Position numbers and translations under genes: made by a program
Part shown: positions 1 to 14,863 of the stretch, in pieces
How the letters are laid out: each line of letters begins with the position of its first letter
How positions within the stretch are numbered: position 1 is the stretch's first letter
DNA from: Candidatus Poribacteria bacterium
Lineage (GTDB): Bacteria; Poribacteria; DTPJ01; WJIO01
DNA length: 14,863 bases
Assembly (NCBI GenBank): GCA_014730235.1
Contig: WJIO01000398.1
Location: forward strand, 1 to 14,863
Reading direction: 5' to 3'
Notes under the pieces: generated by a model
What the model saw: the letters and a program-made list of their open reading frames with translations, nothing else
What the model was told of the DNA's origin: nothing
Databases searched by the model: none

Positions 1-120
1 CTCAACCGCTGTATATTCAGTTTCAGCATTTGACCTGACTGTATTGTGTATATATAAGCCCAAGAATAACACAAGGATCAGGACTACAGCAGAACCTGGT
101 TTTCTGATTAAATTTTTCAT
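1..120 (-). CDS. N-terminus of a membrane-anchored protein, PilX/GspK-like (partial)
   Basis: Only the first 40 codons are in the window; the frame is open to the left edge. Read from the ATG at 120 the protein begins MKNLIRKPGSAVVLILVLF, has one hydrophobic segment (about residues 9-26) and then a polar stretch containing NAETEYTAVE. A short basic start, a G-S pair, one membrane helix and a following S/E-rich stretch is the layout of the N-terminal segment of type IV pilus PilX and type II secretion GspK minor pilins, but too little is visible to be sure. Any secreted or membrane-anchored protein with an uncleaved signal would look similar. In-frame ATGs also exist at 135 and 180. None has a well-spaced Shine-Dalgarno sequence; 120 is chosen because it gives the usual short pre-helix length. 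Confidence 0.5.
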   Translation of the reverse strand, partial: MKNLIRKPGSAVVLILVLFLGLYIHNTVRSNAETEYTAVE

Positions 121-192
121 CTTCTTTATATTCATTACGCGCTTTTCAGTTAAGCGTAAAGAACATATTATGGAATTCATTTTTGTAATGGA

Positions 193-214
193 TTATCCGA
201 AATTGTTCGGATAA
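193..214. repeat. Perfect 9-bp inverted repeat in the leader of the left-edge gene
   Basis: TTATCCGAA at 193-201 and its exact complement TTCGGATAA at 206-214 are separated by 4 bases. On the minus strand the hairpin lies 13 nt before the ATG at 180 and just after a strong AGGAGG (221-228). There is no T-run after it in either direction, so it is not an intrinsic terminator. It may be an operator or a translational control hairpin. Confidence 0.5.
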
Positions 215-512
215 ATAGCCATCCTCCTCTCGATTTTTTAAATCGCTTTATTTTCATATAATTAACCAGTCTGAGTATATTTTGCAATATATGTGCCATA
301 CTGGATTGCAAATTCCTTTTTGATTCTCCTGATACCAGAGACAAATAACCTATGCAACTTTATACAAAAACAATCATATTTACTTATCTATTCCTAGCAT
401 GAGTTTTGCAACGTAAATATTGTATGAACTTTATGTCCCTGGTTAGATTTAATATGGTGTGGGTTTTAATCTTATATAATGCTTTTTCTGTTTATCTGCG
501 GAAGTTCAAAAT

Positions 513-549
513 GTGTCGGATTTTTGTCTTTAGTGTCAGGTTTTTGTCT
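513..549. repeat. Two 17-bp direct repeats, 20-bp period, upstream of a promoter
   Basis: GTGTCGGATTTTTGTCT (513-529) and GTGTCAGGTTTTTGTCT (533-549) match at 15 of 17 positions and start exactly 20 bp apart, about two helical turns. The second ends 11 bp before the -35 hexamer at 561. This spacing puts both on one DNA face just upstream of RNA polymerase, as expected for an activator or repressor that binds as a tandem dimer. The regulator is unknown. Confidence 0.6.
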
Positions 550-560
550 CTTATCTTTTC

Positions 561-589
561 TTGACAAAGAGGTATTAGCATGTTAGAAT
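561..589 (+). promoter_or_regulatory. Sigma-70 promoter with extended -10
   Basis: TTGACA (561-566, perfect -35), a 17-bp spacer, and TAGAAT (584-589, 5 of 6 matches to TATAAT), preceded by TG at 581-582 to give the extended -10 pattern TGnTAnAAT. The predicted start is near 596. It points at the sigma-like gene at 922 or at a small RNA/small ORF in between. Confidence 0.7.
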
Positions 590-720
590 CATCAAGCCTT
601 TTAACTAACAAACCGACCTTTGAATGTCCTTCCAGCCGGGGGGACAGACTTATTCATCATCTATCCAGCATCAATCTAACTTGTGCAATGTGCTGGTGTG
701 TCTTTTTAAGCAGCTTTTGA
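580..720 (+). CDS. Possible 46-aa cysteine-containing small ORF (doubtful)
   Basis: ATG at 580 is preceded by AGAGG (568-572) with a 7-nt spacer, and the frame runs 46 codons to TGA at 718-720. The predicted product starts MLESSSLLTNKP and ends with a cysteine cluster (TCAMCWC) before a hydrophobic tail. The ribosome-binding site and start lie inside the 561-589 promoter, so if that promoter is used the transcript would begin downstream of this start codon. The two readings are exclusive unless a transcript from further upstream exists. An overlapping frame (624-749, 41 aa) is also open, which weakens the case. No family is recognised. Confidence 0.15.
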   Translation: MLESSSLLTNKPTFECPSSRGDRLIHHLSSINLTCAMCWCVFLSSF

Positions 721-921
721 AAAAGTTGTTTGAGTCCTCAAATATCTGAAAGCCTTAAGCAAAATCCCTTATATCCCCATCAAAATTATTCTGGAATAGA
801 TCATAAGCCACCAAATGGTCAAAGGAAATAATTATCCCATCTGCCTGTGGGTATATGTCATTTTGGTTGCGCTGATAATTGATTTTCCGGGGTAAATAGA
901 AAACCACGGGGGGTGGTCAAC

Positions 922-1308
922 ATGTCCAGTTTTAACCCTGATTTCTGGGAAATACCTGTTGAATTTCATAAACTTGAGGAGTTTGATACCAGATGTGCTT
1001 TGTATTATGAGACTAATGACGAGAGAGAATCCCGGTGGCTGCGTGAAGAAAAACAAAAACAGATAATGCCAAGACTAATGGATATTATAGAAAATGAGCT
1101 TACCGCAAAGCAGCGTCAGGCGGTAATTCTCTATTTCTTTGGTTGTAAAACCCAGGAGGAAATAGGTGAGATCATGGGTATACCCCATCAGGTCGTTAGT
1201 CAGCATATATACGGCATCAAGCGCAACGGAAAAAAAATCGGCGGGGCCATGTCAAAAATCCGTAAAGCCTGTAAAGAACAGGGTATATACCTTCAGGAGG
1301 CATCTTGA
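922..1308 (+). CDS. Small sigma-70 region-4-like HTH regulator
   Basis: A 128-residue soluble protein. The C-terminal half (about residues 59-115) reads as sigma-70 region 4: LTAKQRQAVILYFFGCKTQEE, then the helix-turn-helix EEIGEIMGIPHQVVSQHIYG, matching the LT..QR.V..L...G.T..EIA..LG.....V...... pattern. The N-terminal half (NPDFWEIP, an acidic/aromatic stretch and a charged helix) shows no region 2, so the protein should not recognise a -10 element like a complete sigma factor. It is more likely a stand-alone DNA-binding regulator, as in the proteins annotated as sigma-factor-like HTH proteins. The frame is open from a GTG at 913; ATG at 922 is preferred because the G-rich stretch 908-916 then sits at Shine-Dalgarno distance. 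ACCAC/GTGGT (903-907, 913-917) could fold over that stretch. No partner gene is adjacent in the same direction. Confidence 0.75.
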   Translation: MSSFNPDFWEIPVEFHKLEEFDTRCALYYETNDERESRWLREEKQKQIMPRLMDIIENELTAKQRQAVILYFFGCKTQEEIGEIMGIPHQVVSQHIYGIKRNGKKIGGAMSKIRKACKEQGIYLQEAS

Positions 1309-1379
1309 AATGATGATTGCTTATATTTCTAAAATTAACTAAAACCAGATGTTGCAGTGCTTAAAGAGACACTAGCAAA

Positions 1380-1482
1380 TGAAAATGCTATCAGGCTGTC
1401 ATTCCTGCGAAACTCTTATTCCTTTTTGCTCAAGCTTTTTCAAAAAGTTTGAAGCAGGAATGACAGCCTGATAGCATTTTCA
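1380..1482. repeat. 103-bp element with 29-bp perfect inverted repeats (MITE/REP-like)
   Basis: Arm 1380-1408 (starts TGAAAATGCTATCAGGC) is the exact reverse complement of 1454-1482. The 45-bp centre holds a second near-palindrome (CAAGCTTTTT 1431-1440 with AAAAAGTTTG 1442-1451), so the whole folds into a nested hairpin. The tips of the arms contain TCATTCCTGC, which resembles widely scattered intergenic repeats of the TCATTCCYGCGAAAG type. AAT directly flanks both sides (1378-1380 overlaps the arm by one base; 1482-1484), possibly a short target duplication. It sits between two convergent genes and may also end transcription from either side. Confidence 0.75.
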
Positions 1483-1523
1483 ATTATAGCCACACTAAAG
1501 CCGGAAGAACCTTTAGCTATAAT
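1483..1523 (-). terminator. Hairpin just after the porin gene, possible terminator
   Basis: ATTATAG (1483-1489) pairs with CTATAAT (1517-1523) and CTAAAG (1495-1500) pairs with CTTTAG (1511-1516), giving an interrupted stem starting 3 bp after the porin stop codon. There is no clear U-run on the minus strand, so termination here is uncertain. The large 1380-1482 hairpin follows immediately. Confidence 0.3.
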
Positions 1524-1526
1524 GTC

Positions 1527-2681
1527 TTACTGTAATATAGCGACATCAAAATTATACTGAAAATTCAAATATAATATATTATCCCCCAGATCAGGAAAGC
1601 CAGCCTCCTCAGTTTCTTTTATCATATAATTTAGCTGTAACCGCATGTTTTTCATAGGGATAACATTAATGCCAAAGGTGGTGTTGCGCTGGTGGGTGGA
1701 TATGCCGTTTTCGTGGAGTCTGAATGTGTAGGTGTCGTATCTTGCGCCTGCCTGTAGCAGTTCTTTTACCAGCCAGCAGAGGATTCTGACTTCGTATCCC
1801 TGATAATAGAGGGATGTTTCGGTGCTGTAAAAGTAATCGTCTTTTACCTTGCCTTCTCCGTACATAAACCCCGCCTGAAAACGTGATATGTTGGTATGGA
1901 AATCAGCCGACCATGACTGGCGTTCCAAATCGAAAACGGTTTTGCCGTCGTTGAATAGCACGTTGTTGTGGGTGTTCCGGGAATAATGTCCGCCTATACC
2001 CATCCAACTTATGGGTGTAATGTTAATCCTTCCGCCGTAAAAGTAATCGCCAAAGCTGTTGCTGTATAGAAATTCCTTGCTTTCAGGCCCGCCTATAAAT
2101 AGGTTTGCACCAAGTCCATTTCCCACCATGAGAAAATATGAGAACATCTGTTTGTTTTTGTCAGGGCCTGCCTTTCCCTTTAACCCGATTCCCAGATCCC
2201 GGCTGTAGGATCGGTTGCCGTAAAATGCGCTGTAATATGGCGTTCTGGACAAAGACCAGTCAGTTATATAGCCTGATAAGGTGGATCGGGAGATAAAATC
2301 CAGTTCTGAATCGCTGATGAGAGCTTCATATAACGAGGGTATTTTCATCTGTCCTGCGTATATATTTATTAGTTCATGGGGATGCCATTTAGCATAAGCG
2401 TCCAGAACTGCAACCCTTTCTTCCAGCCGAATCTGTATTCTCCCGTCTAATTTTGTGTCCGGATTTTTGTAGTTAAACGCTACGCGTCCTTGTTTGAGGT
2501 TAAATCCGCTGGTTGTATCGGCTGCCAGTATTCCTGTGGTGGCCTGCCTGACCTGGTTTTCGTTTTCCTCGTATATATCATACCAGAGGCTTAAATTTCC
2601 CTCTATGTCCAGTTGCTGCGAATATGAAAGTGAAGCTGAAAAGATTATAATGATTGCTGCAAAGATAATCGTTCGCTGCAT
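1527..2681 (-). CDS. Outer-membrane beta-barrel porin, phosphate-selective O/P type
   Basis: A 384-residue protein with a signal peptide (about residues 1-21, hydrophobic IIFAAIIIIF then SASLSYS|QQ). The mature part alternates short amphipathic strands rich in Y, F and W with turns. Features resembling the phosphate-selective porin O/P family are an early GNLSLWYD strand, a KQGRVAFNY segment, a LDAYAKWHP strand followed by IYAGQMKIP, and RDLGIGLKG. These porins form trimeric channels in the outer membrane, often anion-selective; the substrate cannot be read here. The C-terminus is a strand (YLNFQYNFDVAILQ) that ends in Q rather than the usual aromatic residue. It is the last gene after tupABC and the diheme gene, separated from the latter by a 34-bp palindrome. 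Its ribosome-binding site is weak (AAAGGG well upstream of the ATG). Its place in the unit suggests tungstate/molybdate or another oxyanion as substrate, which is inference. Confidence 0.75.
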   Translation of the reverse strand: MQRTIIFAAIIIIFSASLSYSQQLDIEGNLSLWYDIYEENENQVRQATTGILAADTTSGFNLKQGRVAFNYKNPDTKLDGRIQIRLEERVAVLDAYAKWHPHELINIYAGQMKIPSLYEALISDSELDFISRSTLSGYITDWSLSRTPYYSAFYGNRSYSRDLGIGLKGKAGPDKNKQMFSYFLMVGNGLGANLFIGGPESKEFLYSNSFGDYFYGGRINITPISWMGIGGHYSRNTHNNVLFNDGKTVFDLERQSWSADFHTNISRFQAGFMYGEGKVKDDYFYSTETSLYYQGYEVRILCWLVKELLQAGARYDTYTFRLHENGISTHQRNTTFGINVIPMKNMRLQLNYMIKETEEAGFPDLGDNILYLNFQYNFDVAILQ

Positions 2682-2703
2682 AGGTTATACTACCCTTTAA
2701 AAT

Positions 2704-2737
2704 GATAACTGGTCGGGTGATCACCCGACCAGTTATC
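2704..2737 (-). terminator. Perfect 34-bp palindrome between diheme and porin genes (attenuator/terminator)
   Basis: 2704-2737 equals its own reverse complement. As RNA on the minus strand it makes a 14-bp GC-containing stem (GATAACTGGTCGGG) with a UGAUCA loop, starting 16 nt after the diheme stop codon and followed by AUUUUAAA. The U-run is short, so partial termination or an mRNA-processing/stability hairpin is likelier than a full stop. The porin ATG lies only 22 nt further on, leaving no room for a separate promoter. Confidence 0.6.
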
Positions 2738-2752
2738 GCTATTGGTCTATAT

Positions 2753-3934
2753 TTATTGTACGTTATGTCCGTATATTATAAGCTGACCCGCGTCTATATA
2801 GGCCCAGCCGCCGTTCATGTAGTCAAATTCCTCGACGCCCGCGGGCATAGGGTCAATTCTTATGGCGATTACGCCTCGAACCATCGCACCGGCGTTATGG
2901 TCAGCGTCTTCATTGAAGTCGTAACCGTCGTCACAACCGGAAGGTGAATATTTCAAACCTCTGTCCGGCTGTCCGGGATCTGTTTGGGGAACTACTATAC
3001 GGAGAGGGCCTTCTCCATTGATCCTTCCGCTGGATGCTTCCAGGTATGATGTATCAAGGGGGATACCGTCTTTCTCATAGGCCATTATAAGGTAATGTTC
3101 TCCGGATATGGGTTCACCATCCACCAGTCCGGCTGGCATATCTTCCGGGTAAATAACAAAACCGCAGTCAGGGCCCTGGGTATCTACATCGAGACCTGAG
3201 TAGAATAAAGGCTGTGGAAACTTCTTATCTACATACTCTATAGGCAGGGATTTCATATATCCATCCGGGGCTATTATTGTTATTCCTGTTGCACCACTAA
3301 GGTCTATTCCCTGGCTGTCAAGCAGATCTTTGATCTTTACGCCTTTGTAGGTAACATAATCATCAAATTGCTGTTTTGTGGTGTTTGACAGCATGAACTG
3401 GCTGTGGGAAGGCATAGCCTTTAACTCATCCAGTGTGACTATTTTCAGTGTTGCCACCTGCTGTCCCGGTTGACTCATTTCACTGCCCGGATATCTTTCG
3501 GCCATAAGTTCTTCGTCGTTGGGATAGCCATCTCTGTCTGAGTCTTTGTCCTTGATTTCCTTTAGTGCGTTCATGTCACGACCCGCATCGTAATAATCAA
3601 TACCAAAGGCGTTCAGGGTTTCTATAGGTGTATGGCCTGTTTCATCCAACAGCAGCTTGTGGCAATAATCACATGCACTGCTAACCAGTTGACCATCTTC
3701 TATTTCTCCTGTATGGCATGTCTGGCAGTCGTCCAGACGGGTACCTACCAGGGATGGATAGACGCTGACCAGGTTATTGCTGTCTATGTCGTTTTCGTGA
3801 CCTTTATAAGCCCTGGAAGAAACCATTGCTTCCATTTCTTCTTCATCATCCGATTCATCGCAACCCGGAAATGCGCACAAAAACAGCACAAGTACAGATA
3901 CAAGCAAGCTAAACCCAAAAAGTCTTTTCTTCAT
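2753..3934 (-). CDS. GEGP-motif diheme c-type cytochrome with molybdopterin-oxidoreductase-like domain
   Basis: A 393-residue exported protein. A signal sequence (1-24) ends in AFPGC with Cys25, probably the lipidated residue, although Phe at -3 is unusual; Asp follows at +2. Two heme c motifs follow: CQTCH (70-74) and CDYCH (88-92). DKDSDRDGYPND (129-140) resembles an EF-hand/thrombospondin-3-type calcium loop. From about residue 195 the chain resembles the sulfite-oxidase/molybdopterin oxidoreductase fold (YKGVKIKDLL, APDGYMKSLP, YLIMAYEKDGIPL, GEGPLRIVVPQ). GEGP (307-310) recalls the proteins annotated as GEGP motif-containing diheme proteins. No cysteine lies between residues 92 and 256, so the usual metal-ligand Cys ahead of the W/Y-x-G-V segment is absent and cofactor binding is doubtful. 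A good AGGAG (3941-3945) precedes the ATG. It starts 20 bp after tupC. A periplasmic electron-transfer role is inferred. Confidence 0.8.
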   Translation of the reverse strand: MKKRLFGFSLLVSVLVLFLCAFPGCDESDDEEEMEAMVSSRAYKGHENDIDSNNLVSVYPSLVGTRLDDCQTCHTGEIEDGQLVSSACDYCHKLLLDETGHTPIETLNAFGIDYYDAGRDMNALKEIKDKDSDRDGYPNDEELMAERYPGSEMSQPGQQVATLKIVTLDELKAMPSHSQFMLSNTTKQQFDDYVTYKGVKIKDLLDSQGIDLSGATGITIIAPDGYMKSLPIEYVDKKFPQPLFYSGLDVDTQGPDCGFVIYPEDMPAGLVDGEPISGEHYLIMAYEKDGIPLDTSYLEASSGRINGEGPLRIVVPQTDPGQPDRGLKYSPSGCDDGYDFNEDADHNAGAMVRGVIAIRIDPMPAGVEEFDYMNGGWAYIDAGQLIIYGHNVQ

Positions 3935-3954
3935 TTGATTCTCCTGTTAAATTA

Positions 3955-4968
3955 CTAAAACAAATGGACATCTGAATCCTTGAAAGATACATAAATATTT
4001 TTCTCAAAGATGTCCGAATCCCTGAACTGGAATTCTTCACGCTTTATCAAAGCTACCAGTTCAATACCAATGTCTACTACTGCTCTTACTTTTTCATTTT
4101 CTAAAGCCACTGAGGTGATCTTCCCATCAAAGCAGTTTTGGTCTTCCGGTGATTTTTTAGAAGATATGCTTATATTTTGGGGGTTGATGTAGATTCCTGA
4201 TTCACCTTTTTTATTTTCAGCCGTTTTTAGCTGAATCCCCTCCTTAATCTCTATAATACAGCCGCTTTTACCTGGCTTGCAGCAGCCAAAGAAGATGTTT
4301 TCAGGACTGCTGCCAATAATTTTTCCATCCAGAAGTGATACAATTTTATCTGTAATCCTGTGAGCTTGAGACAGATCGTGGGTTGTAAAAACTACGGTAG
4401 TTCCTTTTTGCGTGTTTATTTCATGGATCAGGGATTCAATAGCTTTTACGTTTCGCCTGTCCACGTTAGCTGTGGGTTCGTCCATAAACAACAGCCTGGG
4501 TTCCAGCGCCAATGCCCGGGCCAGAGCCACCCGTTGGGTCTCACCCGCCGACAAGTTCCTGGCCTTGCGTTCCTCAAATCCATAAAGACCAACCTGTTCC
4601 AGAGAATTTTTTATCAAATCTCTGATCTGTTCTTTTCCGTAATCCCTGACCCGAAGGCCGTAAGCCACGTTTTTATATACGCTGGTATTAAAAAGCACAG
4701 GTGACTGCATAACCAGGGTCATCTGCCGTCGTATGTCCAGAGCTTTCCTGGAATTCGGATTAATTTCTGATCCGTCGAAATATATATGACCTGAAGTAGA
4801 GGCTTCAAGCAGATTGAGTATCTTAAGTAAAGTTGTTTTCCCGGAACCGTTGGGACCTACCAGCGCATAAATAGAACCTGTTTTAAACTCCAGTTCCGGT
4901 ATATCCAGCACCCTTTTACCATCATAATCTTTCTTTAATTTTTCAACCCGGATGATAGCCGAATCCAT
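3955..4968 (-). CDS. tupC: Tungstate ABC transporter ATP-binding protein
   Basis: A 337-residue ATPase that powers oxyanion import from the cytoplasmic side of the TupB permease. Visible motifs are Walker A GPNGSGKTT (38-46), Q-loop Q88, ABC signature LSAGE (139-143), Walker B LLFMDEP (159-165) and H-loop TTHD (195-198). Residues from about 255 form an extra C-terminal domain with beta-rich segments (IYINPQNISISS, KITSVALENEKVRAVVDIG) like the TOBE/Mop-type regulatory domains of molybdate and tungstate importers, which may sense the oxyanion. A cysteine group (FFGCCKPGKSGC, 227-237) sits in the linker and is unusual. The gene starts 4 bp after tupB with GGAG about 9 nt before the ATG. The molybdate ATPase ModC is the alternative, but the TupA and TupB neighbours favour tungstate. 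Confidence 0.9.
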   Translation of the reverse strand: MDSAIIRVEKLKKDYDGKRVLDIPELEFKTGSIYALVGPNGSGKTTLLKILNLLEASTSGHIYFDGSEINPNSRKALDIRRQMTLVMQSPVLFNTSVYKNVAYGLRVRDYGKEQIRDLIKNSLEQVGLYGFEERKARNLSAGETQRVALARALALEPRLLFMDEPTANVDRRNVKAIESLIHEINTQKGTTVVFTTHDLSQAHRITDKIVSLLDGKIIGSSPENIFFGCCKPGKSGCIIEIKEGIQLKTAENKKGESGIYINPQNISISSKKSPEDQNCFDGKITSVALENEKVRAVVDIGIELVALIKREEFQFRDSDIFEKNIYVSFKDSDVHLF

Positions 4969-4972
4969 ACTT

Positions 4973-5674
4973 TTATCTCCGTTGAAAGTGGGGAAAAATC
5001 GTGTTAAGCAGTAATGCTACGATTACCAGGTGTATCAGCATAAGGATAATACCCAGAGCGATGCCTACAGCAAATTCTCCCATACTTGTCTGTAGGGCTA
5101 TAGCTGTGCTTATGGTTCTGGTAACGCCCCGAATATTCCCACCCAGCATCATGGCTGCCCCTACTTCGCCAATGATCCTGCCAAATCCTGTTATTACTGC
5201 CACCAGTAATCCCAGCTTTGCCTCGAAGATTACCGCCGATGCTGCCTGTCGACTGCTTGCGCCCAGGGTTAAAGCTGTTTCCTTTACCTTTGCATCAACG
5301 CTTTGTACTGCTGATATGGTCAAAGCCGTTATTATGGGAACAGCCAGGATAAACTGGCCTATTATCATGGCCGTAGGAGTATATAGAATATCCATAAAAC
5401 CAAAGGGCCCGCGACGGGATATAAACGAATATACCATCAAACCCACCACCACAGTAGGCAGGGCCATCAGCGTATTTAATATGGTAACCAGAAACCTTTT
5501 ACCCCTGAAATTCTTTACAGCTATTAAAAATCCCAGAGGCAAACCCACAATTGAGGCAAATATTATAGCCGTGAATGAAACCCGCAGGGATATAAAAACT
5601 GCGTTAAAGACTTCTCCATCAAAGGTAAATATCAGGTATAAGGCCTGCCTGAAGCCATCGAGAATATAGTCCAT
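4973..5674 (-). CDS. tupB: Tungstate ABC transporter permease
   Basis: A 233-residue integral inner-membrane protein with about five to six hydrophobic helices (for example FTAIIFASIVGLPLGFLIAV, MIIGQFILAVPIITALTIS, LGIILMLIHLVIVALLL). The cytoplasmic EAA-type loop that docks on the ATPase is visible as KETALTLGASSRQAA and following residues (about 131-145). The length and ALPTVVVGLMVY and RIIGEVGAAMMLGGN segments match TupB and the related permeases of molybdate/tungstate type. The ATG lies 2 bp after the tupA stop codon, with AGG of the last tupA codon acting as a weak ribosome-binding site, so translation is probably coupled to tupA. Confidence 0.9.
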   Translation of the reverse strand: MDYILDGFRQALYLIFTFDGEVFNAVFISLRVSFTAIIFASIVGLPLGFLIAVKNFRGKRFLVTILNTLMALPTVVVGLMVYSFISRRGPFGFMDILYTPTAMIIGQFILAVPIITALTISAVQSVDAKVKETALTLGASSRQAASAVIFEAKLGLLVAVITGFGRIIGEVGAAMMLGGNIRGVTRTISTAIALQTSMGEFAVGIALGIILMLIHLVIVALLLNTIFPHFQRR

Positions 5675-5676
5675 TA

Positions 5677-6483
5677 TTACCTAACAGCCATAGGGTGAAA
5701 AAGTCTCTCACCGTCTTTCTTAAAATCCGCTATGATCTTCTGGCCATCCACAGATGTTACCCATCCTATCAATGCCATTGCATGAACATATTTCACGTGC
5801 TGATGTTTGGCGGGGTTTACAGCTATTATACCGTAGGGATTAGCCAGCCTTTCTGTATCTCCCTCCAACTGGATTACCAGATCAATTTTATCTTTGTAGG
5901 CCAGATATGTTCCCCGGTCGGAGATGGTATAAGCCTGCTTTTCATCGGCTATCTGTAGGGTTGCTCCCATTCCCTGGCCTGTTTCCATGTACCAGCTTCC
6001 CGATGGCTCGATGCCTGATTTTTCCCACAATAGTTTTTCCCGCTTATGCGTGCCGGAGTCGTCACCTCTGGATACAAAGGATATTTTCTTTTCGCTGATC
6101 ATCTTCATAGCCTTAAGAGCGTCTTCAGCTTCTTTTAATCCCGCAGGATCATCAGCCGGGCCCAGGATTACAAAGTCGTTATACATTACATCTCTGCGAT
6201 TGGCACCGTATCCTTCTGAAACAAATTTATCCTCCGCGCTCCGGGCATGCACCAGAACCACGTCCACATCACCATTTTCACCCAATGCCAGAGCCTTGCC
6301 TGTTCCCACAGCGATAACGTCCACCCGTATATCAAACTGCTTTTCAAAGGGTGGCAGTAGTTCCATCAAAAGGCCCGAATTGTCTGTGCTTGTAGTCGTT
6401 GCCATCTTCAAACGCGTTTCTGCAAAAGCGAAAGAGGAAGTGGTTAAAGTAAGTACTAAGATCAAAAATACCAGTTTCTTCAT
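5677..6483 (-). CDS. tupA: Tungstate-binding periplasmic protein
   Basis: A 268-residue solute-binding protein with signal peptide 1-21 (cleavage after AFA, before ETRLKMATT). TTTSTDNSG (29-37) near the mature N-terminus, VGTGKALALGENGDVDVVLVH (59-79) and SRGDDSGTH (138-146) are the conserved oxyanion-binding segments of TupA; the T/S-rich loop and SRGD.SGTH distinguish it from ModA. It captures tungstate in the periplasm and hands it to TupB. A good ribosome-binding site (GGGAG) precedes the ATG by about 8 nt. It is the first gene after the riboswitch and intrinsic terminator, so expression of the unit should depend on cofactor status. Confidence 0.93.
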   Translation of the reverse strand: MKKLVFLILVLTLTTSSFAFAETRLKMATTTSTDNSGLLMELLPPFEKQFDIRVDVIAVGTGKALALGENGDVDVVLVHARSAEDKFVSEGYGANRRDVMYNDFVILGPADDPAGLKEAEDALKAMKMISEKKISFVSRGDDSGTHKREKLLWEKSGIEPSGSWYMETGQGMGATLQIADEKQAYTISDRGTYLAYKDKIDLVIQLEGDTERLANPYGIIAVNPAKHQHVKYVHAMALIGWVTSVDGQKIIADFKKDGERLFHPMAVR

Positions 6484-6555
6484 GCTCTTCTCCCGTGAAT
6501 ATTTAATTAATTACCGATTCGCTGATCACAGATTACGGATCACGATAAAAAACCA

Positions 6556-6598
6556 ATAAAAAAAGACCAGTTTCCGTGCAGATCAGGACACTGGTCTT
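6556..6598 (-). terminator. Intrinsic terminator downstream of the riboswitch
   Basis: On the minus strand AAGACCAGT (6590-6598 complement) pairs perfectly with ACTGGTCTT (6563-6571 complement), an 18-base loop between, running straight into a U-tract of seven (6558-6564). It lies between the riboswitch aptamer and tupA, so it is the likely expression platform: premature termination versus readthrough into tupABC. Confidence 0.85.
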
Positions 6599-6610
6599 AA
6601 TATTCCTTAA

Positions 6611-6710
6611 TCTCCTTTCCAAACACGGGAGGCAAAGCCGTTTCCAGCCATACCCTATCGTCCATCCGTCATGAGCTTTAAGAAGCTTTTAGAGCGGGAT
6701 GGATCGGAGA
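6611..6710 (-). promoter_or_regulatory. Moco/Tuco (molybdenum/tungsten cofactor) riboswitch aptamer
   Basis: Read on the minus strand the element closes with TCTCC (6706-6710) pairing with GGAGA (6611-6615). Inside are a TCCATCC/GGATGGA stem (6697-6703 with 6661-6667), a GCTG-GAAA-CGGC hairpin with GNRA loop (6637-6648), and the 3' core GCCTCCCGTGTTTGGAAAGG (6614-6633). This core resembles the conserved GCCUCCCGUAUCUGGAAAGG of the E. coli moaA Moco RNA. The family is known to precede moa, mod and tup genes, and its position directly before a terminator and tupA fits. It is not certain whether this is the Moco or the shorter tungsten-associated (Tuco) variant. Confidence 0.88.
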
Positions 6711-6735
6711 AATATATCTTTGTTTATGTCAGAAT

Positions 6736-6764
6736 ATAATAGGATAACTTACCTTTTATGTCAA
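6736..6764 (-). promoter_or_regulatory. Sigma-70 promoter of the tup unit
   Basis: On the minus strand TTGACA (complement of 6759-6764, perfect -35), a 17-bp spacer, and TATTAT (complement of 6736-6741, 5 of 6). The start should be near 6729, about 20 nt before the riboswitch closing stem. Confidence 0.8.
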
Positions 6765-6789
6765 GTTTTTTCTCTTTTTCTAATCAAAA

Positions 6790-6803
6790 ACAAATGCATT
6801 TGT
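6790..6803 (-). terminator. Possible weak terminator after guaB
   Basis: ACAAATGCATTTGT is a perfect 14-bp palindrome 8 bp after the guaB stop and is followed by TTTTG on the minus strand. The stem is short and AT-rich, so it may be leaky and let guaB transcripts run into the tup promoter region. Confidence 0.35.
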
Positions 6804-6811
6804 ATCAAGAT

Positions 6812-8356
<1,545 letters not shown>

Positions 8357-10462
8357 CTATTGAGCGTTTCCTACTGGTACAAAGAATGTTTCACTTCCTA
8401 AGTCTAATAACTCATTATCAAGCTTTCCTGTCATTCCTGTTAATATGGTTATCACGTTGCCTGCAAAATCATCGTCTATATCTATGACTATGGTCTCTGT
8501 ATTAGTATTGCCGTCCCTTATTCTACCATAATCTATAGTTGTATCTTCAATATCAATGTTATCATTTAATGGAATAAAATTAACTTCTACATCGTCAACA
8601 TCCTCATCAGATATATTTATGAGGGTTACGTTTACGGATATAGTCTCACCGGGTTCAGGCATACCGTTGGCGTTGTTATCTGAATCCAGTGTTTTTGAAT
8701 CGCTGATTCTACTCATTAAAGCGTTATATCCCTGGGGTGGTAAGTATCTGATCATACCTCCCACAGTAATAGATAACTCCTCTATTCCCATTGATTTATT
8801 GTCTTCTTCCACTTGTAATAGCATTTCTATTGGATATCCTGTAGATACAATTATATTAAATGGATCGTCATCTGAGGCCACATCAGTCATGGGATCTTTG
8901 CCTGTAGTATCAACAATAATATTGGTTTCATCATTACCAATTATGTAATAAACAACAGATTGGTCGGTGTTGGGATTGAGGTATTGTCCTATAAGGGCAT
9001 CAGGTGTCCAGTCGGCGTCAGGTACTGTTAAACTTACATCAGTAATAAGACTTCCGCTGGGGGAGTTATAAGACAGGTCACCTACATCATCAATACTGAG
9101 TTCATATTCATTATTGGCTATTTCAACATCATTGGCTGATATATCGTTATATCTGCCTCGTTTTTCTTCCAGGCTTATAAATTCGGGAGCCATAAATTCA
9201 TAAACATCAGCCTCAACATCCGGCACCGTTTCATCTGTGACATTCCATCGGGCTACTGAAAGCTTTACGTCTTCGCCTAATTCGGGAATGCCGTTGTCGT
9301 CATCTTCCAGCCAGTAGGCCACAATGTGGGTTCTCTTGCCGAAGTATTTCCTGAAGGTTAATGTATCAACTGTATCACCATCTACTTCGATCTCCAGGAA
9401 GAAGTTAATATATCCTGTAAAGAATCCATCATCTATGGAAACCTCAAATTCTATATTTTCGGTTTCCCCTGCTTCTATTTCGTCTATTTCGATTCTATCC
9501 TCTGTAGCTGTGACCACATTTGGAGACCAGTCCAGGTTTATCTCAATATCCGTAAGGTCAACGGATGATATGTTTTCCAGATCAATATCAATATCCCCTA
9601 AACCCCCGCCAGGTTCAAGATCATCGTCTACGACTATACTCTTGACTATTAAGTCAGACCCGATTTCTATGGAGAATTCGTCTGAGCCAATGAATACATC
9701 GTTCTGGTAAATTTCGAGGCTAAAGTTTACTAGATCTCCCACAGGTGCAAAGTCATCGTCTATCTCCACAAACTGGAAGGAAGACATCCTGTTGCTGTTT
9801 GCCGATATAGTACCGTAATTAATGGATATACCGGTGGTTGCCATATTGACTGTATCCCAATCTGTTATTTGAGTTCCAGTGTATGTAGGCACTTTACCCT
9901 GTATCCGGGTGTCATTGGATTTGAGTTTAGCCACGATATTTTGGATGGCATTATCCGAATTATTTGCCAGGTATATATCCAGTTTCATAAGTTCACCCGG
10001 TTCCGGTGCTGAGTCTTCGTCGTTTTCTTCCAGATCATCGTCCATTACCACAGCTATCCTCTTGTTGCCGCTGTTATCCAGGGCTATAGTTATAGGAGTT
10101 CCGCCCATAAGGATGCTGAATGTTTCTATGGCGGTGCTGTTATCCTCCGAGTTAGTTATGGTAAGTTCGAATATAACCGGGTTCCCCAGGTCTGAAGCAG
10201 CATCCAGCTCCACATAAAATCCGAATATTCCCGCTGCTGTTGCACCTGGCTGGATATTACCCAGGTTTGATGTATCCTGACCTATTCCCTGTTGTCCGTT
10301 AATTGATTTCCGTATATATTGATTTTCTGTGCCAAGTTTCGCTAATACATTTTCCACTGTTACTGAGCCAGTATTCTTTACCAGAATCCTGAAGTTTGAA
10401 ATTTCCTGTCCCGGGCTTAGTTCACCTTCGTATTTTTCGTAAACTATGTTATCCGATCTACC
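8357..10462 (-). other. Aspartate-rich C-terminal beta-sandwich tandem
   Basis: About four domains open with an acidic turn (MDDDLEENDEDSAPEPGE 1579-1596; VDDDLEPGGGLGD 1717-1729; LEDDDNGIPELGE 1824-1836; DSDNNANGMPEPGE 2032-2045), each followed by a strand of alternating hydrophobics and N-x-S/T residues as in CARDB-type folds. Three close with IDDDF or IDDGF (1673-1677, 1782-1786, 2101-2105). The third is interrupted at about 1910-1978 by a DADWTPDALIGQYLNPN and YYIIGNDETNIIVD segment typical of beta-helix/surface proteins. Calcium binding is inferred from the Asp pattern. Confidence 0.6.
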
Positions 10463-13400
10463 CTTCAGGTAAACTTCCAATTTTGTCCGGGTGATTTCAG
10501 AATTAAGCATGGTAAAATGTCTAGTTCCTGATGCAAATTCCAGTCCACTTGTGTTGGTTATCGTTACTGGAATCTGTTCAAAGACTTCAGTTTCGGGTGT
10601 TTCCAGATATGGAAATGCGCTGTTACTGCTGAAGTCTGCGCTGGTGGTTGTCACCAGATCATCATCACTTGCATTGACTGAAAGCCCATAATAATGTGTG
10701 TCAACATTTTGATTGGGCTGATTGTTTAAAGCCATAATTGTGGTAGAATTTTCCAATACTTCCTGCCATGCGCTGTTATAGTATGTCATGGCGGCGGAGC
10801 TTTGGGTCTTGTTCAGGAATTTTTCAAATTCCCTCTTAAGCAGTTCGTCGTTTACCCCTCCGTGAGGAGTTCCCAGCATTGTCAGGCTTCCGATGTAAAT
10901 ATCAGCGCCGTCGTTTAAAGCATCTCTTACTATCAGACCACCTGTGCCGTGAGCAATTACATCAATCTTGCCGTCGTAATTACCCTGAAGCAGAGCATCC
11001 AGATTATCCAGCAGTATACTGCTGTTATATCCTATAGTTCGCTCTACGTCATAGTTAAATACAAGTACGTGATCGTAATACGTCTCGTTATTATGGTCTT
11101 CAAGCTCTCTAAGCGAATCCAGTATATTATCTAAATCGTCAGAAGTGCTTGTTATTCCATGAACTGCCAGAGCTATTCTCCGGTCATTTTCGTCAATCAC
11201 CGGAGTGCTGTTTGATAAGGGATCCCTGATACCGTTGGCAAGTCCCGAAGCAAAACTGTCAAACCTTGTAATCAGCACATAAAATACTGTATCAGTAGGA
11301 TCCAGAACCTGATCGAACTGGTGATTGCTGTCGCTGAAATTTTGTATATCATCCGGTGATATATTTATCGTTATATTTTGTTTATTTAATGATATGGTTC
11401 TGTCTACAAAAGCGTAGTCAGTTCCGTCATACAGGAATGTCATTATGGATTCATTTGATACGTTTCTGGATATTTCGTCGGGCCAGTCCATAGAAAGCTC
11501 TATGTCGTTTATAATTCTACCTTTAAAGCCCATTCCTATAGCTTTACCAAGGGTTACTCTTGGGTTATTCAATCTTGTTGGTTCGCCGCCGCTGGAACCT
11601 AATGCCACAGTGCTGTTCTGGGTAAAGGTATTCCTGGGTATACTGAGTCTATATTCTTTGGAATTGGCATCTATATATTCTATAGTATTATCCTGGTTAG
11701 CAAGAACTTGCTCAACCTGATAGGGATAAAGAGTTACATCATTATTGGCGGAAGTTTCACCTGATGTTACTGTTATGTCTTTTAGTGATTCATCCCTTCC
11801 ATAACCAGGGGCTGTTATAACCAGATCATAGCTCCCGGGATTAAGTTTTGTGATTATGTAATTTCCGTTATTCGAGTTAGCCATTTCGGTTTTTACATCA
11901 ACCCCGTTTTGTTGAGCTTTTACTATTATACCATTCACCGCAGGGCTAACCGTTCCGGCGATAGTTCCAGTTGTTGTGTCTATGAGTTCCGAGTATTCAT
12001 CGCTTTCCGCTGTGTTTCCGGCTGTGTCCGTTGCTTTTACTCTGTAAATTAGACTTCTGCCGGCGTAGGTACTCCAGTTTGGTGATGGTGGAATATCATA
12101 GAACCATGTATCAGCTTTTGCTGTGTCTTTAATCATAGTTCTGTAACCCATATACCCGCTTGGTTCGATTTTATAATCCAGTTCCACTTTTGAACTGCTT
12201 ACGCCGCTGCCCTGATCCGTAATCTGCACTTCAACTCTGAATAGTCCTGTTGTATCTTCTTTTAAATCTGTCGCTTCCCATTCCACGAACTGCGGGGGAA
12301 TATTGTCTATTCCTATACCCCGGTCTGTGGCGGCATATGCTTTCGCTTCATCGTCATCAGTAATAGCTGCTCTGAGCCATACTGCTGCGTCTGCGTCAAT
12401 AACAGTTGTATCCCATGAAGCTATATATGGTGTGTTGGCCAGCGGTGATCCAATATTAATCCAGTTTACATTATCAAGGCTGTATTGGAACTGCACGCTT
12501 TCCACGTCACCGTCATCATCTGTTGCATCTGCCATTATGTTAATTGTGCCTTTTTCCCAAAGCTTATATGATGAGCTTATCATTCCTCTGGGTGGATCGT
12601 TGATGTCGTCTATAAGTTCCTGTTGTTCCTGGGTTTCCGGGGTTTCATTTCCTACCATATCAAAGGCCCTGGCTTTATAGTAGATTATCTGACCCCTGTA
12701 TGCGTTCCATGTTCCGTTTGGTTCGGGTATATCGTAATACCAGTTATTGCCCGATCCCTCTACCATTGAGTTGAAGCCCATATTTATTGAGCCTACTTTA
12801 TAGGACAATTCAACCCGGTCAACACCGCTTCCGATCAGGTCATCAACCTCAACCTGTATGCGGAAGTTTCCTCTGGTTTTTTCATCAAGATCCTGTGGGT
12901 TTTGTGTCCATTCACCGAATTCTGAAGGTTGGTTATCTACGCCAAAGGGCTGGGGGATTATATATTCCGTTGTTATGCCGCTTTCATCAAAATCAATGGC
13001 TACGGCCTTTATCCATACGTTTTGTTCTACTTCCGTTATTGATGCTGTCGTATCCCATTCCACTGTATAAGGCGGTTCGTTTATGGCTATTGGCGTTATA
13101 GGTATCCATTCCACTGCGTCAGTGCTGTAATCAAAGCGAACACCTGGTGTTGATTCATCCATATCCGAGGCCTGGGCTTCTATAGTTATTTCCCCGCCTT
13201 TCCATTCTTCAAATGTGGAGGTAATATTTACCACTGGCGCATCGTTTATACTGTCAATAGGTTCTTGCTGTTCAGGGCTTTCAGCGGTGTTTCCCGCTAC
13301 GTCGCCGATCCTGACTTTGTAATAGACATTTTCACCTCGACGGGAGTTCCAGCTATCCAATGGCTCTGGTATGTCAAAATGCCAGGTCAGACCATCTCCT

Positions 13401-14863
13401 GTTTCCATGTTTTCATATCCATCGTATTGACTGGCTGAACCTATATGATAATCTATCAGGGGTGTTTTATCCTGTAATCCACTTCCGCCTGAATCAACTA
13501 TATTTAGAGATATACGGAATCTTCCTTCTGTATCTTCCGTCAGATCCTCAGGATCTTGTAGCCAGTTGGCGAATTCAGGAGGTGTCTTGTCCAGCTTTAT
13601 ATTGGACAGGGTTATGTGGGCGCTTTCGTTGCCGAGAATGTCAACGCCCCAGTATTCCAGTATATTGGCCGGCCCTTCGGTTGTTATTTCTACATTTACA
13701 CTTGTTCGACCGTCCATAGGAACATCGGTTTTTTCACCGTTGAGCACATATGATATACTTGACATACCAATGCCGCTCATATCGTTGGCCGTTAGTTTGA
13801 TAATGAAATCCTCTCTATGCCACTGCTTATCATAGTTATCAGTTACAACAGGAGGTAGATTGTCAACCCTGAAGCTGTTCAATATGGTGTATTCTGCTAT
13901 ATGTCCGTCATCATCTGTTGCCCTTGCTCTTATCCAGACAGCTTCCCTTACTTCCGGTATGGCTTTCTGGGTATTCCATTGTATGGAATAGGGTGGTTCT
14001 GTCAGTGGTGCGTCAATAGATATCCAGGTTACTTTATTAAAGCTGTAGTCAAACTGGACGCTGACGATTGTGCCGTCAACATCCGAACTTTCAGCTTCGA
14101 TGTTGACAAATCCGTTTTCCCATGTGTTAAACGTGCTTGTTATAGCCACGCTGGGTGCATCGTTTATGTCGTTTATAAGCTCTTCCTGTTCCTGGCTTAT
14201 TGATGTGTTTCCCGCTACATCTGTTACGCTTATTTTATATTGTATATATTTCCCCCGATGTCCGTTCCATGTCTCTGCCGGTTCAGGTATTTCATAATAC
14301 CATATGCCATCGGTTTCTCCGTTAATCATGCTCAAAAATTCGCTGTATTGAGAACTTCTGCCGATACGATAGCTGAATGTAGGTATCATACCTACCAGAC
14401 CGCTTCCTGTATCTGCAACTCTTACTGTTATTCTGAAAGAACCTGTGCTGTCCTCTGTTAGATCCAATGGATCCGTTGTCCAGTCTGCAAATATTGGTGG
14501 GGTTTTGTCCAGCTTTATATCCGTAGTTTTTCGGTGACTTTCCACGTTGCCCAGTTTATCTGTTCCCCAATATTCGATCTGGCTGGTTCCCTCTGCTGTT
14601 ATCAGGGGTTGTCCGTCGGTAAATATGTTCTGTTCTTCTCCGGAGTTTATGATATACTTTATATCCTGTATTTCTATACCTATCCCGTTACCGTCAGTAC
14701 CTGAAAGATTTACATAAAAATCTTCATTATGCCACAGACCATCATAATCATCGCTGGTTACCGGGGGTTCATTATCCACGCCTATGGCGTTGGGATATAT
14801 GTCAGTAGCTGTTGCGCCGCCGTCGTCAGTGGCTATAACCTGAAGCCATATTGTCTGAGCTTC
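8357..14863 (-). CDS. Giant modular secreted protein with Ig-like repeats and lipase-like domain (5' end missing)
   Basis: The open frame runs from the right edge to a TAG at 8357, giving 2,168 codons with the N-terminus outside. Numbering from the GTG at 14779: alternating Ig/OmpL47-like modules (to 934); a carboxypeptidase-regulatory-like beta-sandwich (about 935-1018: GTIAGTVSPAVNGIIVKAQQ, PGSYDLVITAPGY); a beta-rich linker (1019-1195); a lipase-like alpha/beta hydrolase domain (1200-1430) with Gly at the nucleophile position; and an aspartate-rich tandem of CARDB-like sandwiches (about 1440-2140). The C-terminus (FFVPVGNAQ) has no LPXTG, PEP-CTERM or membrane anchor. It is probably an exported surface or matrix protein; the Asp-rich turns suggest calcium. 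The GTG at 14779 is not a start: the 28 codons before it encode the end of another repeat. No transporter or sorting partner lies beside it in the window. Confidence 0.9.
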   Translation of the reverse strand, partial: EAQTIWLQVIATDDGGATATDIYPNAIGVDNEPPVTSDDYDGLWHNEDFYVNLSGTDGNGIGIEIQDIKYIINSGEEQNIFTDGQPLITAEGTSQIEYWGTDKLGNVESHRKTTDIKLDKTPPIFADWTTDPLDLTEDSTGSFRITVRVADTGSGLVGMIPTFSYRIGRSSQYSEFLSMINGETDGIWYYEIPEPAETWNGHRGKYIQYKISVTDVAGNTSISQEQEELINDINDAPSVAITSTFNTWENGFVNIEAESSDVDGTIVSVQFDYSFNKVTWISIDAPLTEPPYSIQWNTQKAIPEVREAVWIRARATDDDGHIAEYTILNSFRVDNLPPVVTDNYDKQWHREDFIIKLTANDMSGIGMSSISYVLNGEKTDVPMDGRTSVNVEITTEGPANILEYWGVDILGNESAHITLSNIKLDKTPPEFANWLQDPEDLTEDTEGRFRISLNIVDSGGSGLQDKTPLIDYHIGSASQYDGYENMETGDGLTWHFDIPEPLDSWNSRRGENVYYKVRIGDVAGNTAESPEQQEPIDSINDAPVVNITSTFEEWKGGEITIEAQASDMDESTPGVRFDYSTDAVEWIPITPIAINEPPYTVEWDTTASITEVEQNVWIKAVAIDFDESGITTEYIIPQPFGVDNQPSEFGEWTQNPQDLDEKTRGNFRIQVEVDDLIGSGVDRVELSYKVGSINMGFNSMVEGSGNNWYYDIPEPNGTWNAYRGQIIYYKARAFDMVGNETPETQEQQELIDDINDPPRGMISSSYKLWEKGTINIMADATDDDGDVESVQFQYSLDNVNWINIGSPLANTPYIASWDTTVIDADAAVWLRAAITDDDEAKAYAATDRGIGIDNIPPQFVEWEATDLKEDTTGLFRVEVQITDQGSGVSSSKVELDYKIEPSGYMGYRTMIKDTAKADTWFYDIPPSPNWSTYAGRSLIYRVKATDTAGNTAESDEYSELIDTTTGTIAGTVSPAVNGIIVKAQQNGVDVKTEMANSNNGNYIITKLNPGSYDLVITAPGYGRDESLKDITVTSGETSANNDVTLYPYQVEQVLANQDNTIEYIDANSKEYRLSIPRNTFTQNSTVALGSSGGEPTRLNNPRVTLGKAIGMGFKGRIINDIELSMDWPDEISRNVSNESIMTFLYDGTDYAFVDRTISLNKQNITINISPDDIQNFSDSNHQFDQVLDPTDTVFYVLITRFDSFASGLANGIRDPLSNSTPVIDENDRRIALAVHGITSTSDDLDNILDSLRELEDHNNETYYDHVLVFNYDVERTIGYNSSILLDNLDALLQGNYDGKIDVIAHGTGGLIVRDALNDGADIYIGSLTMLGTPHGGVNDELLKREFEKFLNKTQSSAAMTYYNSAWQEVLENSTTIMALNNQPNQNVDTHYYGLSVNASDDDLVTTTSADFSSNSAFPYLETPETEVFEQIPVTITNTSGLEFASGTRHFTMLNSEITRTKLEVYLKGRSDNIVYEKYEGELSPGQEISNFRILVKNTGSVTVENVLAKLGTENQYIRKSINGQQGIGQDTSNLGNIQPGATAAGIFGFYVELDAASDLGNPVIFELTITNSEDNSTAIETFSILMGGTPITIALDNSGNKRIAVVMDDDLEENDEDSAPEPGELMKLDIYLANNSDNAIQNIVAKLKSNDTRIQGKVPTYTGTQITDWDTVNMATTGISINYGTISANSNRMSSFQFVEIDDDFAPVGDLVNFSLEIYQNDVFIGSDEFSIEIGSDLIVKSIVVDDDLEPGGGLGDIDIDLENISSVDLTDIEINLDWSPNVVTATEDRIEIDEIEAGETENIEFEVSIDDGFFTGYINFFLEIEVDGDTVDTLTFRKYFGKRTHIVAYWLEDDDNGIPELGEDVKLSVARWNVTDETVPDVEADVYEFMAPEFISLEEKRGRYNDISANDVEIANNEYELSIDDVGDLSYNSPSGSLITDVSLTVPDADWTPDALIGQYLNPNTDQSVVYYIIGNDETNIIVDTTGKDPMTDVASDDDPFNIIVSTGYPIEMLLQVEEDNKSMGIEELSITVGGMIRYLPPQGYNALMSRISDSKTLDSDNNANGMPEPGETISVNVTLINISDEDVDDVEVNFIPLNDNIDIEDTTIDYGRIRDGNTNTETIVIDIDDDFAGNVITILTGMTGKLDNELLDLGSETFFVPVGNAQ
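10490..11182 (-). other. Lipase/PGAP1-like alpha/beta hydrolase domain lacking the nucleophile serine
   Basis: Inside the giant protein: strand plus oxyanion segment RIALAVHGITST (1201-1212), nucleophile elbow IDVIAHGTGGLIVRDAL (1272-1288), GTPHGG (1303-1308), a likely acid residue in SDDDLVTTTSA (1371-1381) and a likely His in RHFTMLN (1420-1426). The elbow is normally (G/A)HSxGG; here the Ser position is Gly1278, codon GGC at 10946-10948. The fold therefore looks intact while the canonical catalytic Ser is missing. Confidence 0.75.
11978..14863 (-). repeat. Protein-level repeat array A-B-C in the giant gene
   Basis: Three module types recur. A (about 94 aa, OmpL47-like: W-x-x-E-D-F start, IEYWG-D-LGN end, closing IKLDKTPP) at 14779-14498 and 13867-13586. 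B (about 110 aa: D-x-x-E-x-T-x-G-x-F-R-I start, YY-x-IPEP-x-x-x-WN middle, D-x-x-GNT end) at 14497-14159, 13585-13241, about 12925-12596 and 12301-11978. C (about 98 aa: DINDAP start, FDYS-x-x-x-V-x-WI, VWI-A-A-D-DG end) at 14158-13868, 13240-12944, 12595-12302, and a fragment at the right edge (14863-14777). The order from the N-terminal side is C-A-B-C-A-B-C-B-C-B. Confidence 0.85.

Follow-up and report, generated by a model that had tools for sequence, protein, structure and literature searches.

We found that, in a 14,863-nt stretch of Candidatus Poribacteria bacterium DNA (assembly GCA_014730235.1, contig WJIO01000398.1, positions 1 to 14,863, hereafter the window; all coordinates are in forward-strand numbering), a promoter, a molybdenum or tungsten cofactor (Moco/Tuco) riboswitch and a terminator are followed on the minus strand by the gene run tupA-tupB-tupC-diheme-porin, with intergenic gaps of 2, 4, 20 and 71 bp. 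Judging from sequence comparison, it is likely that this run is one riboswitch-controlled operon which acquires tungsten across the whole cell envelope. The combination is found again in many unrelated bacteria, and it is therefore probable that tungsten uptake involves an outer-membrane part and a redox part, with no description in the literature searched. An earlier note on this DNA had given the same gene positions and gaps, all of which match the list of open reading frames, and had proposed an envelope-spanning tungsten module. The regulation and gene content in that proposal are supported by the data below, and its assignment of a substrate to the porin is an inference from them.

The aptamer (6596..6721, minus strand) matched RF01055 over its full length (model positions 1-135) with a cmscan score of 76.9 bits, above the gathering cut-off of 36. 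In the alignment its P3 stem is deleted, as it is in the relatives' aptamers displayed, and P3-less members of RF01055 correlate with use of the tungsten cofactor (Regulski et al., PMC2408646). By this feature, the window riboswitch is assigned to the P3-less, Tuco type. It is followed by an intrinsic terminator (6557..6598, minus strand), which consists of an inverted repeat with 13-nt arms (6598-6563, −16.6 kcal/mol) and a run of U; the earlier note had recognized both elements. When the transcript was folded with ViennaRNA before the 3' arm of the terminator, an antiterminator hairpin was predicted (6578..6615, minus strand), in which GGAGAUUAAGGA (6615-6604) pairs with a portion of the terminator. 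Within this sequence, GGAG also makes up the 3' strand of helix P1 in the aptamer. Because helix P1 and the antiterminator hairpin have the GGAG strand in common, we predicted an OFF switch, in which the empty aptamer would permit readthrough and the bound aptamer would cause termination. Upstream, a consensus scan predicted a sigma-70-type promoter, TTGACA-17-TATTAT (6736..6764, minus strand), which matches at 11 of 12 positions and was the best of the region. The stretch between promoter and aptamer is tight, and transcription is therefore expected to start around 6729, a few bases before the aptamer. The P3-less aptamer and the intrinsic terminator are as described for RF01055 in 2008, in a paper whose main text does not contain the word "porin" (PMC2408646), whereas the window and its relatives have a porin and a diheme gene behind the riboswitch.

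The same genome carries four strong and two weaker matches to the tungsten aldehyde oxidoreductase (AOR) family. It also has a second P3-less riboswitch (G000:C332:652-774, locus L153), directly 5' of an NAD-type aldehyde dehydrogenase gene (PF00171) at a contig end, and this arrangement looks like a metal-sparing switch by which a metal-free enzyme is made at a shortage of tungsten cofactor. The AOR-family genes and the second riboswitch copy thus indicate that the genome has a tungsten-enzyme metabolism to regulate.

The first three genes encode a periplasmic tungstate-binding protein (tupA, 5677..6483), a permease (tupB, 4973..5674) and an ATP-binding subunit (tupC, 3955..4968), all on the minus strand. 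The best solved relative of TupA is the tungstate-binding protein 3lr1 (E 7e-91). In an alignment to 3lr1 and 5my5, the residues of the tungstate pocket defined in Desulfovibrio alaskensis TupA (PMC5517513), namely TTTS, His59, Arg118, Thr124 and Asp170, are all kept. TupB matched NF041773 (TupB) with E 7e-65, under the equivalog cut-off, and NF038017 above its cut-off. TupC matched ABC_tran (PF00005), with WtpC and TupC among its best families. None of the three proteins reached the NCBIfam equivalog cut-offs (TupA 252 of 400, TupB 219 of 320, TupC 167 of 400). The TupA cut-off was exceeded in none of 395 Desulfobacterota genomes, 209 of which match TupA with E ≤ 1e-45, and since no sampled genome of that phylum exceeds it, we judged it to be narrow. 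The TupABC systems of D. alaskensis and Geobacter sulfurreducens share the three genes and the TupA pocket residues with the window (PMC5517513), but the descriptions consulted stop at the inner membrane, whereas the window scores under the equivalog cut-offs and adds a porin and a diheme gene.

The porin gene (1527..2681, minus strand) lies at the end of the run. Its product matched Porin_O_P (PF07396) with 31.7 bits (cut-off 20.9), as expected from the O/P-type porin named in the earlier note. The AlphaFold2 (AF2) model has 16 long strands, and its best solved matches in VIA-align were OprO (Z 26.2) and OprP (Z 25.9), so that a 16-strand OprO/OprP-like barrel is predicted. Among nine relatives, 38 alignment columns are invariant, including seven Arg and one Lys. 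Compared with OprO and OprP, the phosphate and polyphosphate porins of Pseudomonas, the window porin belongs to the same Porin_O_P family and shares the fold of 16 strands, with Z 26 across ~311-315 aligned residues; it differs in sequence (about 13% identity) and in its probable control, by a tungsten-cofactor riboswitch or, in relatives, also by a TaoR-type regulator.

The GEGP-type diheme gene (2753..3934, minus strand) is separated from tupC by 20 bp, within which lies its own ribosome-binding site, leaving no room for an intergenic promoter. The protein scored 450 bits against NF041762, "GEGP motif-containing diheme protein" (cut-off 300). It has two CxxCH haem sites (C70xxC73H74 and C88xxC91H92), an acidic motif D131-x-D133-x-D135 and the GEGP motif at 307-310. 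A lipobox (...AFPGC) places the predicted lipidated cysteine at C25, a column that is Cys in 23 of 45 relatives; thus the protein, like most window-type members, is a predicted lipoprotein. The AF2 model has a mean pLDDT (predicted local distance difference test) of 69.9, with low confidence in the N-terminal half. Residues 160-364 adopt a SUOX/PruR fold in this model, with VIA-align Z 12.1 to PruR 7kom (124 residues, root-mean-square deviation 2.6), Z about 10-11 to sulfite oxidases, and a best Foldseek E of about 5e-4. Both the GEGP-type identity and the molybdopterin-oxidoreductase-like fold of the earlier note proved correct, the latter for residues ~160-364. Weak PF00174 matches occur in 5 of 11 family members (best E 8.5e-4), and the window protein is under the cut-off. 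A search of PDB chains with the diheme sequence profile gave no credible match, and a plasmid collection contained no match to the diheme protein.

In the alignment of 45 diheme sequences, no cysteines other than the four of the haem sites are family-wide, and the molybdenum-ligand cysteine of SUOX is therefore absent as a family-wide feature. PruR likewise has no such cysteine (PMC13259868). We rejected a catalytic Moco enzyme on this ground. C257 and C334 co-occur in 22 of the 45 sequences and never occur singly, so the pair behaves like a disulfide. His46, His177 (44 of 45) and His346 are conserved and would be candidate axial ligands of the haems. The C-terminal domain thus shares the fold of the PruR/SUOX family and, as in PruR, has no family-wide molybdenum-ligand cysteine; it differs from that family in being fused to a two-haem N-terminal part, predicted to be a lipoprotein in most window-type members.

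We then compared gene neighbourhoods. A scan of named genomes gave 11 diheme relatives, and the surroundings of 45 loci with a GEGP-diheme gene, spread over five phyla or more, were later compared. The NF041762 cut-off was exceeded by genomes of the Myxococcota (8 of 195), Desulfobacterota (23 of 395), Krumholzibacteriota (7 of 80) and the UASB270 phylum (1 of 4); among about 83 genomes searched from the window's own phylum, it was exceeded only in the window's own. A Porin_O_P-type porin adjoins the diheme gene in 35 of 41 evaluable loci, 3' of it in the window-type clade and 5' of it in a second clade, and the two genes touch or overlap in most window-type relatives. Tungstate-transporter genes cluster with the diheme gene in 16 of the 45 loci (tup in 14, the window counted, and wtp in 2), and the diheme tree requires 8 or more changes between the tup-linked and the unlinked state. 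The orders seen were tupABC-diheme-porin (the window), diheme-porin-tupA(BC), porin-diheme-tupA(BC), tupABC-regulator-porin-diheme, and diheme-tupABC without a porin. If a genome of roughly 4 Mb has one to two tup loci, a given diheme locus would, by our estimate, lie within a few kb of tup by chance in about 0.4-2% of cases, which corresponds to about one or fewer of the 45 loci as against the 16 found, although these loci are not all independent. Conversely, the diheme gene lies inside the tup cluster in about 12 of the 209 sampled TupA-bearing Desulfobacterota genomes, and most tup loci have no diheme gene. Co-presence says little, as 15 of 23 diheme genomes have a TupA match (E ≤ 1e-45) compared with 209 of 395 overall. 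By these counts, the signal is linkage, not co-presence. Chance adjacency was rejected in view of the recurrence in at least five phyla, the several gene orders and the riboswitches that stand 5' of porin-diheme elsewhere.

Tup loci without a diheme gene were also inspected. A porin adjoins tupA in 4 of 39 sampled loci of this kind (L160, L161, L168 and L171), so the earlier view that known tup loci provide an inner-membrane importer only does not hold. In L160 and L168, several copies of tupA are followed by the Porin_O_P-type porin and then by tupB. In L161, two Moco/Tuco riboswitches (5006-5126 and 5662-5778) precede porin-tupA. As a separate observation, five diheme loci (L131, L136, L138, L139 and L143) have, directly 3' of the diheme gene and before tupA where that is seen, a gene for a small conserved protein (~110-130 aa) whose start resembles a signal peptide and which has no Pfam match.

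A P3-less RF01055 riboswitch with a terminator stands directly 5' of porin-diheme in five genomes, all Desulfobacterota (L131, L134, L136, L138 and L139; a tandem pair in L136). In L134, tupABC lies upstream of this riboswitch and beyond its reach, so there the porin-diheme pair has a riboswitch of its own. The gene combination of the earlier note therefore recurs, both in several phyla and, in these five genomes, behind the same riboswitch class and terminator. Regulators with the HTH_17+PBP_like architecture (PF12728 + PF12727) lie close to 13 diheme loci, 9 of which show no tup genes in view, and close to 17 of the 39 tup loci from diheme-free Desulfobacterota genomes. TaoR, the regulator of tungsten aldehyde oxidoreductase, has this architecture (PMC11980592), and the regulators near the relatives' loci are TaoR-type by this measure; the window has none. 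Since riboswitch and terminator directly precede porin-diheme in five genomes, once with tupABC outside, the distribution indicates that porin and diheme are members of the tungsten-cofactor regulon of several lineages rather than neighbours by chance.

Taken together, we propose the following mode of action. When Tuco is scarce, the empty P3-less aptamer would allow the antiterminator to form and the polymerase to read into tupABC-diheme-porin; with ample Tuco, helix P1 would hold the GGAG strand, the terminator would form and the operon would be off. The OprO/OprP-like porin may pass tungstate, or a related tungsten or molybdenum oxyanion, across the outer membrane. TupA would then capture the oxyanion in the periplasm, and TupB and TupC would pump it inward. 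The diheme lipoprotein would sit on a periplasm-facing membrane, beside or under the porin, where, at a guess, it carries out a redox or pterin-dependent step in receiving, converting or gating the oxyanion; the electron-transfer partner of the earlier note is likewise a guess. A more specific version makes the GEGP diheme protein the first known redox protein dedicated to the acquisition of an oxyanion metal. In this version, the lipoprotein lies beside a tungstate-selective porin and holds a pterin or tungsten species in its SUOX-type pocket, which has no cysteine; with its two haems, it would convert the ligand or release it for TupA or WtpA. We regard this version as tentative and rather unlikely. 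In the tungsten-uptake literature searched, the route of tungstate through the outer membrane is not covered, and for the GEGP diheme family no recorded function was found. Within the open-licence literature, a search on the diheme family name found nothing, no description of the module was found, and papers on TupA, tungsten enzymes and molybdenum/tungsten genomics do not mention a tungstate porin. Tungsten acquisition across the envelope would give the porin a candidate substrate and place the diheme protein in metal acquisition rather than respiration, and the riboswitch control, present in several genomes, predicts that tungsten starvation switches on both.

Several observations weigh against this proposal. 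To our knowledge, a redox protein has not previously been implicated in the uptake of an oxyanion. As TupA, TupB and TupC score under their equivalog cut-offs, tungstate rather than molybdate is likely as the substrate, not certain. Neither tup nor wtp lies near 29 of the 45 diheme loci (some at contig ends), which makes porin-diheme the core unit and the tup link optional; 6 evaluable diheme loci have no adjoining porin; and the Myxococcota and Krumholzibacteriota diheme loci show no Moco riboswitch. Finally, a perfect 34-nt palindrome between diheme and porin (2704..2737, minus strand), absent from the earlier note, folds into a hairpin of −25.9 kcal/mol, is followed by AUUUUAAA, and could stop or reduce readthrough into the porin gene. 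It is unique within the genome, and only four U follow the hairpin. From its sequence, it is possibly an attenuator, an mRNA stabiliser or an operator; if the operon is co-transcribed through it, as we suppose, it may keep porin expression in the window lower than that of the genes before it.

We wondered whether porin and diheme might instead act together as a small respiratory unit or electron conduit that serves a tungsten or molybdenum enzyme and shares the switch without moving tungstate. Two c-type haem sites next to a porin recall porin-cytochrome conduits, a connection with Moco enzymes is suggested by the SUOX-like fold, and most diheme loci lack tup genes. A porin-cytochrome conduit consists of a multihaem cytochrome, a large barrel and an outer-surface cytochrome, and a large conduit of this kind is not supported here by the 16-strand barrel, the two haem sites and the lack of a recurring outer cytochrome gene. 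Even the small version has against it that the predicted barrel matches OprO/OprP, a solute porin, that just two haem sites are present with no recurring gene for an outer-surface cytochrome, and that the conserved neighbours with a checked identity include no recurrent Moco/Tuco enzyme family. Moreover, a conventional feedback OFF switch would induce a cofactor-needing unit during cofactor shortage. We consider such a conduit improbable. Partial comparison is offered by the Geobacter ext genes (ExtI, selenite/tellurite; PMC5877670), where a porin-like protein is reported to be encoded with c-type cytochromes and tied to an oxyanion, as here. The ext cluster holds multiple cytochromes, whereas the window has one diheme protein, a 16-strand solute-porin fold and tungsten-cofactor control.

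Alternatively, porin and diheme may take up or release another ligand, such as a pterin, a metal-chelating compound or a tungsten-chelate, bound by the PruR-like domain. The nearest fold is indeed that of pterin-binding PruR (Z 12.1), also without the molybdenum-ligand cysteine (PMC13259868), and control by cofactor level would fit the uptake of a cofactor precursor. However, the likeness to PruR is at the level of the fold, OprO/OprP-type porins pass small anions, and the tight linkage to tup and wtp points to an oxyanion. This explanation seems to us no more probable than a conduit. Least of all do we expect that, in the window, tupABC alone is the riboswitch operon and diheme-porin are inconsequential downstream neighbours cut off by attenuation: the 71-bp gap with a perfect hairpin (−25.9 kcal/mol) 5' of the porin would suit this, as would an import of genes given that no other sampled genome of the phylum has a diheme match above the cut-off, but no intergenic promoter fits into the 20 bp between tupC and diheme, which hold a ribosome-binding site, four U are all that trail the hairpin, and elsewhere the porin-diheme pair stands directly behind the same riboswitch class.

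Beyond the operon, a 32-nt inverted repeat lies 3' of the porin (1377..1485; arms 97% complementary, 45-nt spacer, fold −62.4 kcal/mol) and contains GTCATTCCTGC; it is possibly the transcript end or a dispersed repeat. Oriented towards the operon end, positions 913-1308 (plus strand) encode a 131-aa protein with a sigma-70 region 4-like helix-turn-helix. Upstream of guaB, positions 8357-14779 (minus strand) encode a 2140-aa repetitive protein with immunoglobulin (Ig)-like and carboxypeptidase-regulatory matches and a weak DUF7379 match at residues ~1204-1309.

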